From: Eublepharis macularius
Taxonomy: Eukaryota > Chordata > Lepidosauria > Squamata > Eublepharidae
Reading direction: 5' to 3'
Length of the DNA: 64,000 nucleotides
NCBI RefSeq assembly: GCF_028583425.1
Contig: NC_072807.1
Coordinates: 33,051,001-33,115,000 of the forward strand
In this document: piece by piece, positions 1,481 through 62,945 of the stretch
Numbering within the stretch: the stretch's first letter is position 1
Layout of the letters: every line of letters begins with the position of its first letter
Made by a program: the position numbers and the translations under genes
The notes under the pieces: generated by a model
What the model was told of the DNA's origin: nothing
The model's input: the letters and a program-made list of their open reading frames with translations, nothing else
Database searches by the model: none

Positions 1481-2121
1481 CACACACAACAAGCAACACA
1501 GCAGCAAGTTTTGAAAAACATATGGCAGCAGATTTCACAGGCAACCACTACCCAACCACCGAAATATATGGCAAAGGCTAGGTGGTAGATATCCCTTTCT
1601 CTAGGTGGCTGGCAAGGAGGCCCAGAGCATCAACCATATCAGTACTGAAGGGTATATAAGGCCCTCCAATGCTACTGGTCTTTACACATGTCTCCCCCTA
1701 ATGGAGAGATATGTCTCGGGTTATTCCATGTAAGAAACAAACCCATTTTTCCTCTGTAATTGTTGTGTTTGGTGTCTTGAAATATATATGGGTTAGTGCT
1801 AGTAGGGGACTTATAAATCGGAAGCAGAGCACTATTTAAAAATACCAATAAAAACCCACCTACTAAAAACAGAAAGCTGCCCCATCGAATTATAGTTTCA
1901 GGTTCGTTGGAGAATGTTGATAAACGTCAAGCCACTTTGGTGCCCTTTGTTGGAGAAAGGCAGGCAGGGAAAGGTCTTAAAGAAATGTCTCCAATAAACT
2001 AAAGAAATAGTAACAGCTGAGAGGCGGTACAATGTAGTGGTTAGAGCATTGGATAAGGGGTAAGAAACAAGCCAAGGGCTAGAGCTACAGAGGAATTCTC
2101 TCAGCCACCGAACGATGCTCA

Positions 2122-32062: not shown

Positions 32063-32283
32063 CTTTGCTGAATCACACAATTAACAAGATCTCTGAAATG
32101 ACCTTTCGTAGCTAAATACAACCCTTTGTAGGGTGTCCTCCAAGCCCTCTACTTCCTACGTTTATAGGCTAGGAGTTAATTTTCCATCCTAACATTTGCG
32201 CCAGTCAGGTGAAACCTTTTCAAGACCAATGAGTGTATCAAAAAAGAGTCCAGTAGCACCTTTAAGACTAACCAACTTTATTG

Positions 32284-32321
32284 TAGCATAAGCTTTCGAG
32301 AATCACAGTTCTCTTCGTCAG
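32284..32321 (-). ncRNA. Hammerhead-ribozyme-like core, Penelope family 1
   Basis: On the minus strand the 38 nt core reads CTGACGA, one extra A, a 4 bp helix GAGA/TCTC, GAAA, a 2 bp helix GC/GC with loop TTAT, then TA. All catalytic-core bases of a hammerhead are present. The extra A before helix II departs from the canonical fold, so activity is uncertain. Confidence 0.6.
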
Positions 32322-32436
32322 GTGCATGGAGGGCAAGAAGAAACTCGTCAGATATATAGGTGGAGAGGGGAGGGAGGAGTAGATGCAAACAGTAGCTTCT
32401 GATTGGAGATTAGTTTGCTTCTGTTAAGGAAGTCAG

Positions 32437-32745
32437 TTACTTCTGATAATGAGATAACCATTCATAGTCTCTATTCAATCCCAGCCTGATTGAGTCAAAT
32501 TTACATATGAATTCCAATTCAGCAGCTTCCCGTTGGATTTTGTTTTTGAAAGGTTTCTGTTGAACTACAGTGACCTTTAAGTCCTTGATGGAATGTCCTG
32601 GTAGATTGAAGTGTTCTCTCACCGGTTTCTGGATGTTGCCATTTCTAATGTCAGATTTGTGTCCATTTATTCTTTTGTGCAGAGGTTGGCTGGTTTGTCC
32701 AATGTACAGAGCAGATGGATGTTGTTGGCACATGAACCCTTTCAA
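32437..32745 (-). pseudogene. Penelope-like element GIY-YIG endonuclease fragment
   Basis: This 102-codon open frame ends at a natural stop and encodes the C-terminal nuclease of a Penelope-like retroelement. ALYIGQT carries the YIG half of the GIY-YIG signature, followed by LHKRINGHKSDIRN with the conserved arginine and histidine, then REHFNLPGH and an acidic helix AAELEFICKF. In this retroelement class the domain nicks target DNA to prime reverse transcription. The reverse transcriptase and the first part of the nuclease are absent, so the copy is 5'-truncated and dead. It lies inside the inverted composite at 32248-33023. Confidence 0.85.
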
Positions 32746-32898
32746 AACATGGTTTGAATGGTTATCTCATTATCAGAAGTAACTGACTTCCTTAACAGAA
32801 GCAAACTGATCTCCATATCAAAAGCTACTGTTTGCATCTACTCCTCCCTCCCCTCTCCGCCTATATATCTGATCCGTTTCTTCTTGCCCTCCATGCAT

Positions 32899-32936
32899 CT
32901 GACGAAGAGAACTGTGATTCTCGAAAGCTTATGCTA
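32899..32936 (+). ncRNA. Hammerhead-ribozyme-like core, Penelope family 1
   Basis: Intact 38 nt core on the plus strand, in the inverted arm of the same insertion: CTGACGA, extra A, GAGA/TCTC helix, GAAA, GCTTATGC, TA. Confidence 0.6.
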
Positions 32937-33652
32937 CAATGAAGTTGGTTAGTCTTAAAGGTGCTACTGGACTCTTTTTGATTTTGCTACTACAGACTAA
33001 CACGGCTAACTCCTCTGGATCTATGTATCAAAAAAGATTCCACTGTATCTCAGCTTGTTTTCTATAGACCACCCCCACAACCATCTTTGTTGCCCTCTTC
33101 TTCACCCGTGCCAATGTGCCTACAGTCTTCTTAAAAGGGTTGGTGACTGTTTTATGTTTTCTTTTCAAAATGTATTTTTTTGCGGTTTTGATTTGTGCAA
33201 AACCTGTGTAACCCTTCCCTCGAGAAATGGCCTTTCACATTGTGACTGATAGGTAATCCCCACGTGTTTCATTTTATCGGCAAATCTTCTTTTACAAAGC
33301 CTAAGCAAAACACCAGAAACATATTAATATCAAAAGCTTTTGTTGATATTACTAATATGGGATATTTTGTTGATTTAGGAGTATCTGTTGCTTATGATCT
33401 TCATCATGAGAGCGTAGACAGCGACGTTCGTTTCAAGAGCATCTGACACCACTAGATTGGTTCTGTTTCCTCCAAGTGTTGCAGTTCCCAAACTAACAAT
33501 ATCATTTCAGTACATTAGATTACAGAAATCAACCCCAGGAGAATATCTAACATAGCCACATCTGACATGCATGGACAAGCAGACAAATGGGGGAGAGAGA
33601 GTTGTGCGATGATTAGCGTGTTAGACTCGGGCTAACAGTACGCAATTCAAAT

Positions 33653-42944: not shown

Positions 42945-43521
42945 AATCCCAGGATCGGCCACAATTCACAAACCAGCTACAACAAACCCTAATTTGAAAA
43001 CCAGCTTCCTTCGCGTGTTCACAATTCACTGGGGGTTGATCAAAGAATCATTTATCAACCGCAAGTCGTCGTAATGTCTGAACACAGTCCAAATACATTG
43101 TTCTACCCTGAGATCTGCAAAAGAAAGGAAGAAGTGGGAGTCTGCTGTCTGAGGGCTGGAATGAAATTTAAAGCAACTCTCCGAGAGTTTTTCTCTCTCT
43201 CTCATAGGCCTAGCCAGTGGGGGAAGCTTTTGCTTCTGCATGTGCAAGGGCTACAGTTCTCTGGCTTGCAAATTAAAATATGCATTTACTTTGAGTGGGT
43301 TGCGTTTCAATAAGACCCAGAGCAAGTCATAGGGTTGTAAGCGGCTTTGGATCTCTGCTGGGAGTAAATAAACAAGGAGATGAAATAGAAGCAGTGGAAA
43401 TCAGATAGACAGGGAGTTTGATGAGACAAAAAAACCAGGAGGGCAAACCGATAAGGAACCTTCAAGCACAGATAAATAAAAAAGAGTCCAGTAGCACCTT
43501 TAAGACTAACCAATTTTATTG

Positions 43522-43558
43522 TAGCATAAGCTTTCGAGATTCACGTTCTCTTCGTCAG
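43522..43558 (-). ncRNA. Hammerhead-like core, left arm
   Basis: Minus-strand 37 nt core with intact CTGACGA, GAGA/TCTC helix, GAAA and GCTTATGCTA. The helix II loop is one base shorter than in other copies. The two arms of this insertion match, so they are young or were copied from one template. Confidence 0.6.
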
Positions 43559-43561
43559 CAT

Positions 43562-43598
43562 CTGACGAAGAGAACGTGAATCTCGAAAGCTTATGCTA
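43562..43598 (+). ncRNA. Hammerhead-like core, right arm
   Basis: Plus-strand mirror of the left-arm core, with all core bases kept. A transcript through both arms would fold into one long hairpin, which would compete with ribozyme folding. Confidence 0.6.
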
Positions 43599-45029
43599 CA
43601 ATAAAATTGGTTAGTCTTAAAGGTGCTACTGGACTCTTTTTTATTTTGCTGCTACAGACTAACACGGCTAACTCCTCTGGATCTTCAAGCACAGAGGCTG
43701 GGAAGGGGCAACTGGCTGGATAAACCAAGGTGAATAGAAAGCGCCTGCATTCTTCTCTCTCTATCTCCTCCTGGTAGGGCTCCCTTTGTCTCTTCTCTGC
43801 CCTCCGAACAGATGACAGCAAATGCGATGTGCGTATACAAGGAGTTCTCTCTTGGCTCTGGGGCCAAAACTGCCACAGAGATGCCTTTGAGCTCCCAGAT
43901 CAAAGGGCTATTGTGCCTCACATCTCTGCAAACCCTGGCAGTGCGAAGGGCAGGCTGGGTGCTTTACCCAAAGCCACAGTAACGCGAGCTACACAGCACG
44001 GCACTCCCCCTCCCCCATGCACACTTCTGTTCACAAGGAGGGGCTTTGGTCAAGGCTGCAAACAAACCCAAAGCGGTGGGTACAACCGGGGATCTCCAGG
44101 AAAGAAAGCAGGGGAAGAGAGAGGGCTTGTTTCCCCACCACAACCACAGATCAAACAGGAAATATTTTGGAGCTTAACGTAAAAGTAGCTAAGAACAGGC
44201 GCACGTTTTAAAAAGGAGCAAGCAGATCTGGATTCGTTGAGGTCTGGGCAGAGGAGTGCGTCACCTGCCTCTCTTGTTACCTTCACCCTTTGCCCACAAA
44301 GAATCTCAAAACAATTGCAAAAAAGGCAGCCCTAAGCAGAGCAGGTTATTACTAGTTGAGGGTAGGGACATTAGTTCAGAGTCAGAGCAGATACTTTGCA
44401 CGCTGAAGGGCCCAGGTTCAGATCTGGGGATCTTCACTTAAGGACGGCAGCAGATGTCAGGAAAAAATCTCACTCAACCTGAGAGTGATGATGACCCTTG
44501 GAATAGGCAGTATGGGCCAGCCGTCAGAATCAGTATAAAGCTGCTTCTTTGATTCACAGAACCTGGGCCTATCAGTCGTTCTAAATGGAACCTCTATGTT
44601 CAGAGGCAGTGTACCTTTGATTTCCAGTGGCGCAAGCAACTGCACATTGTTGCAACGTCAGGGAGTAAAGCAAATATGCTGGTTTTACTCTGGAGAAGGT
44701 GGATTCTCTTCTTTCACTGCTTTCTTCATTACTTTCCCTTTTATTTGCACTCACTAACCCAGTTCCTTCATCCCTCCCCCATATTTAAAATTCCACGGAA
44801 CTAAGTTGCAAGCAAAACCTCACAGATTGCACAGGTAAATCTGTGCAAGTCTTCCTATTTTAACAGACTTCCGAATGTTGCGCACACGTTTGTGAGGTCA
44901 AACAAGCTTGCAAAAAGAGGTGTCCCCCCCCTCTAGCCTGTTCTGCAAGAGGTTTCCAGCCCCTCCCCTTGCCACCAGCTGCTCTTAGTGAGAAAAACTG
45001 TGAAATAGGCAACAGAAGGATGACGTATC

Positions 45030-50525: not shown

Positions 50526-50718
50526 AAAGAGCAAGATCTGGGTCGAAGCTGGAAAGTTAAGAAGAGTTCTGCTAGATCAGACCCAAAGGTGCCACCGAGC
50601 TGTGCCCTCTATTTTAAACATGGACTAATGAGGTACATCCAGGAAGGGTACAAAGCCAACAGACCTCCCCTTTGTGTTCCTAGCTGCCAGCATTCAGGGG
50701 CACAGCGCCTCTGAACAG

Positions 50719-50934
50719 AGAAGAGTCCAGTAGCACCTTTAAGACTAACCGACTTTATTGTAGCACAAGCTTTCAAGAACCACAGCTCTCTTCGTCAGAT
50801 GCATGATGCATCTGACAAAGAGAGCTGTGGTTCTCAAAAGCTTATGTTACAATAAAGTCGGTTAGACTTAAAGGTGCTACTGGACTCTTTACTATTTTGC
50901 AAGTACAGACTAATACAACTAACTCTTCTGGATT
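50719..50934. mobile_element. Inverted pair of Penelope ribozyme units with 9 bp TSD
   Basis: A 216 bp insertion framed by TCTGAACAG (50710-50718 and 50935-50943). Its two family-1 units are head to head, meeting at gatgcat joined to gatgcatc just upstream of the ribozyme core. The left core (50761-50798) has lost the CG before GAAA, and the right core (50812-50849) reads CTGACAA and CAAAA. These are CpG-to-TpG/CpA changes that destroy conserved bases. Confidence 0.85.
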
Positions 50935-51304
50935 TCTGAACAGGGAAATTCCATTTAGCTAAGAGGAGTTCGCATTTCTACCCTCCATGAATCCACCCAG
51001 TCCCCCACCCCTCTGTGAAGTCATCTAAGCTAGTGGCTGGCACTGCAGTCTAGTAGCAGTGAATCCTACAATTAAGCAGTGTGCACAAGCAGCGCTTCCT
51101 TTTGTCTGTCCTGAATTACCGCTGCTCACCACGTTTAGAAGGCATTCACAGAAGCCGCTCTGTAGCTTCCAGGGCACCCCAAAAACGTTCACAGCTTCTC
51201 TTCCTCCTCCAAATTCCTCTTTGGGCTTGGTGAAATTTACCAACTGGATGAAATTTACCCAACTCTTCGGCCCTGGTGAAATTTACAAACAGGAGTGTCT
51301 TCCT

Positions 51305-62739: not shown

Positions 62740-62945
62740 ATAGCACTTCTGATGAAGTTGACTCAGAAAAACCTTATGCTGAAATAAATGTGGTTAGCTG
62801 TAAAGGTGACACAGGACTTCTGCTTTATTTTGCTACAACAGACTAACACACCTACCCCTCTGCAACTACCTTTAAGACTAACCACCTTCATTTCATCACA
62901 AGCTTTCTTGTATCAGACCTCATTTCTTTAGATACACAATACAAA
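62740..62945. mobile_element. Decayed Penelope tails, plus then minus
   Basis: A plus-strand tail (cttctgatgaag, aataaatgtggttag, cagactaacacacc) ends near 62868 and is met by a minus-strand tail (acctttaagactaacc, acaagctttcttg). Here the units are tail to tail, unlike the head-to-head pairs. It lies in the presumed first large PPCDC intron. Confidence 0.5.

Follow-up and report, generated by a model that had tools for sequence, protein, structure and literature searches.

A 210 bp insertion in the genome of Eublepharis macularius consists of two ends of a Penelope-like element (PLE) that are joined head to head and surrounded by a single target site duplication (TSD). We consider it probable that this insert is the footprint of one PLE retrotransposition, with cDNA synthesis primed from the two cut strands of the target. 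The single TSD, the head-to-head join, the tail on one arm only, the common source of the arms and the recurrence of the whole arrangement are all observed here. Coordinates refer to the window, that is, the whole stretch of 64,000 nucleotides that was analysed, unless a locus is named.

Results

Structure of the insert

The 13 bp sequence CTTCAAGCACAGA is found exactly at both sides of the insert (43460-43472 and 43683-43695); when the letters of the flanks were shuffled 20,000 times, a common 10-mer arose in only 30. Between the two copies lie 210 bp (43473-43682) made up of one additional T, a minus-strand arm and a plus-strand arm. There is no intervening DNA between the arms and no coding region is left, only two ends. 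The arms meet as CTTCGTCAG-CAT-CTGACGAAG and are identical over 85 bp from the core outward, counted from CTGACGAAG. Beyond this shared part, the right arm has a further 36 bp without any counterpart on the left. The features are as follows.

43460-43472, no strand: left copy of the TSD CTTCAAGCACAGA, 13 bp, exact repeat
43473, no strand: single T at the boundary of TSD and element, untemplated or a mismatch (arm comparison)
43474-43558, minus strand: short arm, an inverted PLE end that starts in the U-rich proximal region and has no tail; equals the right arm over 85 bp
43552-43558, minus strand: hammerhead-like core CTGACGA of the short arm, with GAAA at 43532-43535; named by resemblance
43559-43561, plus strand: junction CAT, with which the right arm opens and which forms the unpaired middle of the palindrome
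43559-43682, plus strand: long arm, a direct PLE end with its terminus CTCTGGAT at the right TSD
43562-43568, plus strand: hammerhead-like core CTGACGA of the long arm
43570-43573 and 43581-43584, plus strand: stem II of the long arm, with GAAA at 43585-43588
after 43592, in the long arm: predicted cut, placed by analogy with PMC11167929
43647-43682, plus strand: 36 bp tail, long arm only (arm comparison)
43683-43695, no strand: right copy of the TSD, 13 bp, exact repeat

Direct sequence comparison thus bears out the exact TSD around a 210 bp inverted-arm insert that an earlier note on this DNA had reported. The same note spoke of two tails in opposite orientation; the arms are indeed inverted and head to head, but only the right one is tailed. 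By analogy with PMC11167929, we take the 36 bp tail as the interval between two putative start regions of reverse transcription. Because one TSD surrounds both arms, the focal insertion was a single event, as had been proposed, and the same applies to many of the other dimers described below. In itself, the focal locus looks like an ordinary product of a Penelope-type element.

Related copies in the window

A GIY-YIG endonuclease is the hallmark of endonuclease-bearing Penelope-like elements. The window holds other related copies of the element, among them two pairs that stand head to head with flanking repeats, and a fragment of such an endonuclease.

50710-50943: second head-to-head pair; untailed arm 50721-50802 (minus strand), tailed arm 50808-50933 (plus strand); repeat TCTGAACAG, 9 bp
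32234-33037: third pair, longer and asymmetric; untailed arm starting at 32240 (minus strand), tailed arm ending at 33020 (plus strand); repeat TGTATCAAAAAAGA, 14 bp, which overlaps the start of the short arm
32440-32760, minus strand: GIY-YIG endonuclease fragment of a PLE (Pfam PF01541, E 4.9e-05, 24.0 bits at a cut-off of 22.6)

The endonuclease fragment sits inside the third head-to-head pair, so that a longer copy of the focal family carries GIY-YIG sequence. Both the focal copy and the set of 51 dimers show inverted ends within a single TSD, one of the ends bearing a tail of about 30-40 bp. An open reading frame upstream of the unit in locus L036 scored 22.5 bits for PF01541, just under the cut-off of 22.6, and one in L033 matched only T5orf172, below cut-off. 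No reverse transcriptase domain was detected in the three fragments scanned, which hold partial reading frames only, and a phmmer comparison of the L036 frame with solved structures gave no match.

In both the second and the third pair the tail is confined to the right arm. At 62769-62907, two diverged units lie 5 bases from each other in an older arrangement, plus strand first and then minus; this probably represents two insertions rather than a head-to-head pair.

Abundance and orientation of junctions

The head-to-head pattern CTTCGTCAG-N(0-30)-CTGACGAAG occurs at 2,247 places in the 2.24 Gb genome, compared with 6 for the reversed control, and the idea that the focal feature is unique was accordingly dropped. 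The centre is exactly ATGCAT at 739 of these places. Genome-wide, there were 13 matches to the head-to-tail pattern and 16 to the tail-to-tail pattern, and by eye some of these have no relation to the element. Both of these patterns are less sensitive, since the exact 9-base tail word is present in 21 of 51 long arms, but this would lead to an undercount of a few-fold, against the more than hundredfold gap that is seen. Intact unit cores number 21,222 in the genome.

Segmental duplication of part of contig C1 means that these genome counts refer to places and not to independent insertions. At about 4.9-7.2 Mb on C1, unit copies that share their flanks reappear at intervals of a few hundred kb (one series formed by L093, L095, L098, L102 and L106, another by L094, L097, L101, L103 and L107) and mark the duplicated stretch. 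Our sample of all units fell in it, where 23 loci reduced by eye to 11 distinct events; for this reason we derived no genome-wide two-armed fraction.

Target site duplications and independent origin

We assembled a set of 51 dimers from 50 listed junction places (the earliest along C1, chosen by the pattern only) and the focal copy. Flank windows covered 30 bases outside and 12 inside the end of the left arm, and 6 inside and 32 outside the end of the right arm. An exact common flank of at least 8 bp was found in 35 of the 51 dimers and one of at least 10 bp in 28, whereas mispaired flanks (2,550 pairings) gave 2.6% and 0.2%, respectively. The commonest repeat length was 13 bp (12 dimers). Repeats adjoin both arm ends in 31 of the 35 dimers and lie away from the arm ends in the other four (L041, L045, L075 and L082), of which L041 is a doubtful dimer. 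Dimers without a common flank of at least 8 bp (16 of 51) are somewhat older, their own arms differing by 5.2% on average as opposed to 3.2% in the rest. The 28 TSDs of at least 10 bp show a weak target preference, with T at the second position in 18 and A at the sixth in 17.

When flank sharing among the 51 dimers was assessed by megablast (>150 bp), no two were alike. Taken together, the flank repeats and the lack of shared flanks indicate a recurrent insertion product and not one copied mobile dimer. To two separate insertions, or to an assembly artefact, we give next to no credence: we found no evidence in support of either, one TSD lies around both arms with no DNA between them, similar places number 2,247 against 6 for the control, and the flanks of the 51 dimers are distinct.

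Tails on at most one arm

Scoring an arm as tailed when it reached unit position 100, we found tails on both arms in none of the 51 dimers, on one arm in 47 and on neither in 4; with random placement, the probability of no double is 10^-9.9. The sequence GTCAGATGCATCTGAC is present at 2,748 places genome-wide and is followed by CTCCTCTG at 94-116 bases in 553 + 517 = 1,070 oriented matches, some of them in duplicated segments. Independence predicts roughly 104 two-tailed places, a rough expectation that assumes independent tails and may include, among the 2,748, old junctions inside longer copies; one was found. That sole match is spurious, as its second flank does not read as a tail.

The outer ends are correspondingly of two kinds. 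The outer end of the tailed arm falls at unit position 118-121 in 44 of 51 dimers; that of the untailed arm falls at 73-90 in 37 and short of 73 in 14. Microhomology between the untailed end and the TSD is slight (mean 0.88 versus 0.35, a value unreached in 2,000 shuffles) and is absent in 15 of the 25 scorable dimers among the 28 with a repeat of at least 10 bp.

Nearly all examined dimers are thus lopsided, and this one-tail rule is what our analysis adds to the known anatomy. We found no prior account of such a count, or of its link to two-strand extension, in the portions of the open-access literature available to us. The available text of PMC11167929 does not mention inverted pairs, and the word 'inverted' occurs in it once only, for an inverted dT.

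Common source of the two arms

Variants rarer than 5% elsewhere were treated as private alleles. Own arms share such alleles in 22 instances, spread over 16 of the 51 dimers, while left arms mispaired with the right arms of other dimers (40 shuffles) share a mean of 0.82 and at most 3. For the 49 of 51 dimers with enough overlap, the mean distance is 3.7% between own arms and 8.2% to the right arms of other dimers. In only 19 of the 49 is no other arm closer than the own partner, which is what one would expect if many of the dimers are old. Over the 78 bp compared, the focal arms are identical, and none of 97 other arms is equally close. Since own arms have private variants in common far above chance, these data point to dimers arising anew, each from one arm source; later gene conversion between arms could add to their identity.

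These observations bear on one suggestion of the earlier note, a mobile mini-element. In this reading the whole dimer would multiply together, in the manner of a miniature inverted-repeat unit or a retrozyme. The 739 copies with the same centre, and the flanking repeat that most of the examined dimers have to themselves, would agree with it. We nevertheless judge it very improbable and do not uphold it: the outer ends are not mutual inverted repeats, owing to the single tail; junctions are diverse; no dimer of the 51 shares the flanks of another; and own arms are closer to each other than to the right arms of other dimers, with 22 private alleles in common against 0.82. The matching terminal repeats of a miniature inverted-repeat DNA transposon are likewise lacking at the focal copy, where 36 bp are unmatched, and genome-wide, where the only two-tailed match is the spurious one.

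Junction centres and inner ends

The centre is ATGCAT in 19 of the 51 dimers. Of the other 32, 7 are palindromic throughout, 2 have one unpaired base in the middle and the remainder have loops or filler; in a half-swap control, perfect palindromes averaged 1.36 and reached at most 6 in 400. The centre of L065, CAG-AGA-CTG, fits a 3 bp snap-back. We also inspected the 40 copies most like the focal unit (L001-L040), a biased sample because it was chosen by likeness to the tailed unit. A head-to-head partner lies within 1.5 kb in 21 of the 40, leaving out L012 (73% match) and copies with only short inverted stretches of element body. The inverted repeat extends across the centre in 14 of the 21 pairs, leaving 0-102 bases unpaired; in the other 7, 62-949 are unpaired. 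The inner end is therefore often, though not always, equal in both arms.

Such centres fit self-priming. In this process the first cDNA, or an antisense transcript, would fold back and copy itself, and opening of the resulting hairpin would leave two inverted arms around a palindrome. PMC3846280 proposed it, for an antisense template, on the strength of palindromes. Palindromic or short-loop centres are common, as the counts above document, and some, such as L065, fit a snap-back. Palindromic centres are, however, compatible with self-priming and with two-sided priming alike. A copied arm should keep the tail, yet 47 of 51 dimers are one-tailed and none has two, the end of the untailed arm mostly lies in what we take to be the second priming region, and the 7 of 21 asymmetric dimers with 62-949 unpaired central bases also speak against a fold-back. 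On balance, we regard self-priming as a rather unlikely origin of the dimers.

Several single loci bear on where the inner end lies. L030 has a solo unit (locus 1501-1624, minus strand) that starts with (G)CATCTG and has a 13 bp flanking repeat, TGATACTGTACTG; no inverted partner was found within 1.5 kb, and it is a minimal one-armed counterpart of the dimer. By eye, one type of long copy has a TATA-like TATATTT about 31 nt upstream of GCATCTG. From this position and from L030 we suggest, tentatively, that the RNA 5' end may lie at GCATCTG; in two other types (L096, L104) TATATTT is 6 nt closer. In the longer copies L007, L015, L019 and L034, the body contains an older, diverged head-to-head junction (..TTTGTCAGATGCATCTGGCGGGG..), roughly 270 bases upstream of the core; it looks as though the element had incorporated an inverted dimer at an earlier time.

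The hammerhead-like motif

Both focal arms contain CTGACGA and GAAA, with GAGA/TCTC between the two, and a stem II of 4 bp is present. The earlier note had described both cores as intact. This stands as far as CTGACGA and GAAA in each arm are concerned; on inspection, however, an additional A separates CTGACGA from the stem and helix III is not obvious. A scan of the insert against Rfam gave no hammerhead match at the gathering score, and hammerheads were absent from the 14 weak matches with E up to 10. Models of microRNA hairpins came out best among these, a result to which any long palindrome may lead. Folding of the arm as RNA (z -0.15 and -0.80) did not support a special structure. Judged by its letters, the motif may fairly be called hammerhead-like, and we retain this label because PMC7761336 describes PLE hammerheads as minimal forms that lack helix III or tertiary contacts.

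At the focal copy the arms are joined at the motif's 5' edge. The cut predicted from PMC11167929 by analogy is about 34 bases further inside the arm, and a junction at the cleavage site was therefore rejected. Of the template switch at the ribozyme boundary that had been suggested earlier, a preference for the boundary is borne out (ATGCAT at 739 of 2,247 places), but the join is off the cleavage site and other dimers are joined elsewhere than at the ATGCAT boundary. A jump from the RNA end to a second RNA copy was also discarded, as it would yield head-to-tail junctions, which number 13 against 2,247 head to head. A ribozyme role at the junction is not supported, and hammerhead mutants left insertion unchanged in vitro (PMC11167929). 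The self-complementary ATGCAT, or an RNA 5' end at this place, would explain the boundary preference without catalysis.

Discussion

A proposed model of two-sided priming

In vitro, the PAc protein of the anole cleaves the two target strands and extends each of them, using two adjacent internal start sites on the RNA; the interval between these sites is an optional genomic tail of 30-40 bases (PMC11167929). By analogy, the outer ends of our dimers, which fall at two putative start sites, would fit each target strand priming a cDNA on the element RNA. We propose that the element endonuclease makes a staggered cut that exposes two 3' ends of 13 nt. One 3' end would prime a cDNA at the distal RNA site and give rise to the tailed arm; at the other, synthesis would begin some 36 nt further upstream, at the proximal U-rich site, and produce the untailed arm. 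Both cDNAs would extend toward the RNA 5' end. A self-complementary stretch such as ATGCAT would often be the place of their head-to-head joining, or else a common RNA 5' end may bring it about, and gap filling would create the TSD. Because the TSD stands on both outer sides, we infer that the primers (3' overhangs of about 13 nt) carry it. One start site per strand, the order of priming, the geometry of the overhangs, the joining step and the use of one or two RNAs are likewise deductions of the model.

The one-tail rule and the in vitro data on PAc favour two-sided target-primed reverse transcription over self-priming. The PAc assay does not explain the one-tail rule, because PMC11167929 reports that top and bottom strands do not differ in start site. 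Other observations count against two-sided priming. Equal inner ends also fit self-priming (7 palindromes among 32 centres versus 1.36), 16 of 51 dimers have no common flank of at least 8 bp, the untailed arm does not reach position 73 in 14 of 51, the repeat does not adjoin the arm ends in 4 of 35, and arm identity might partly stem from later gene conversion.

Two-sided priming is reminiscent of classical LINE-1 twin priming, in which a second target end primes internally on one RNA and which produces inversions of L1 (PMC12016303). As proposed here, both target strands prime, one arm is inverted on one side only and there is a single TSD; the looser untailed end and its slight microhomology also agree. 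LINE-1-type inversions have little overlap between the cDNAs, with a median of 12 bp where L1 cDNAs overlap (PMC12016303), against 85 bp of arm overlap at the focal copy, and the second start here falls in a preferred region. Classical twin priming is consequently an improbable description of the insert, and the dimer would be a special form of twin priming, not the same event as in L1.

We put forward, tentatively, the possibility that two-ended priming is the standard Penelope route. One RNA would be read from each 3' overhang, with start sites that are not interchangeable, and nearly every insertion would have one tailed and one untailed arm, its ends acting like telomerase primers. The minimal dimer would be the case of two cDNAs that terminate together at one RNA 5' end, located immediately upstream of the hammerhead-like motif.

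Comparison with known systems

Inverted-end anatomy inside one TSD, with a tail on one side, is already described in PMC3846280. In Pen2a of Adineta vaga and in other Penelope elements with inverted pseudo-LTRs, an inverted end likewise stands next to a direct one within one TSD. According to the available text, the rotifer elements have a TSD of 8-10 bp, an inverted copy that is 37 bp shorter, an optional 31 bp tail on one inverted end and palindromes at the head-to-head junction. They are longer than the insert described here, which consists of ends only, has no coding region and is flanked by a TSD of 13 bp; the thousands of copies in the present genome, moreover, permit counting. PAc (Poseidon, Anolis carolinensis; PMC11167929) shares the hammerhead-like motif at the element end. 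The evidence for PAc comes from in vitro assays and read mapping, whereas the start sites proposed here are placed by analogy and not by alignment with PAc.

Among other retroelements, twin-primed 5' inversions of LINE-1 resemble the dimer in having second-strand cDNA and an inverted segment inside one TSD, and inverted insertions make up 18-22% of those of L1 in PMC12016303; in our case the long arm includes the entire short arm. Metazoan retrozymes, as PMC7761336 presents them, are alike in being small and non-coding, in carrying type I hammerhead motifs and in possibly being mobilized by PLEs. They spread via circular RNA of repeated units, while the corresponding head-to-tail repeats are nearly absent here (13 against 2,247 head to head). 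For Penelope integration, the literature available to us holds a self-priming inference from 2013 (PMC3846280) and in vitro two-strand extension from 2024 (PMC11167929). The one-tail rule is a footprint that helps to discriminate between the two, and thousands of natural junctions are at hand in this genome.
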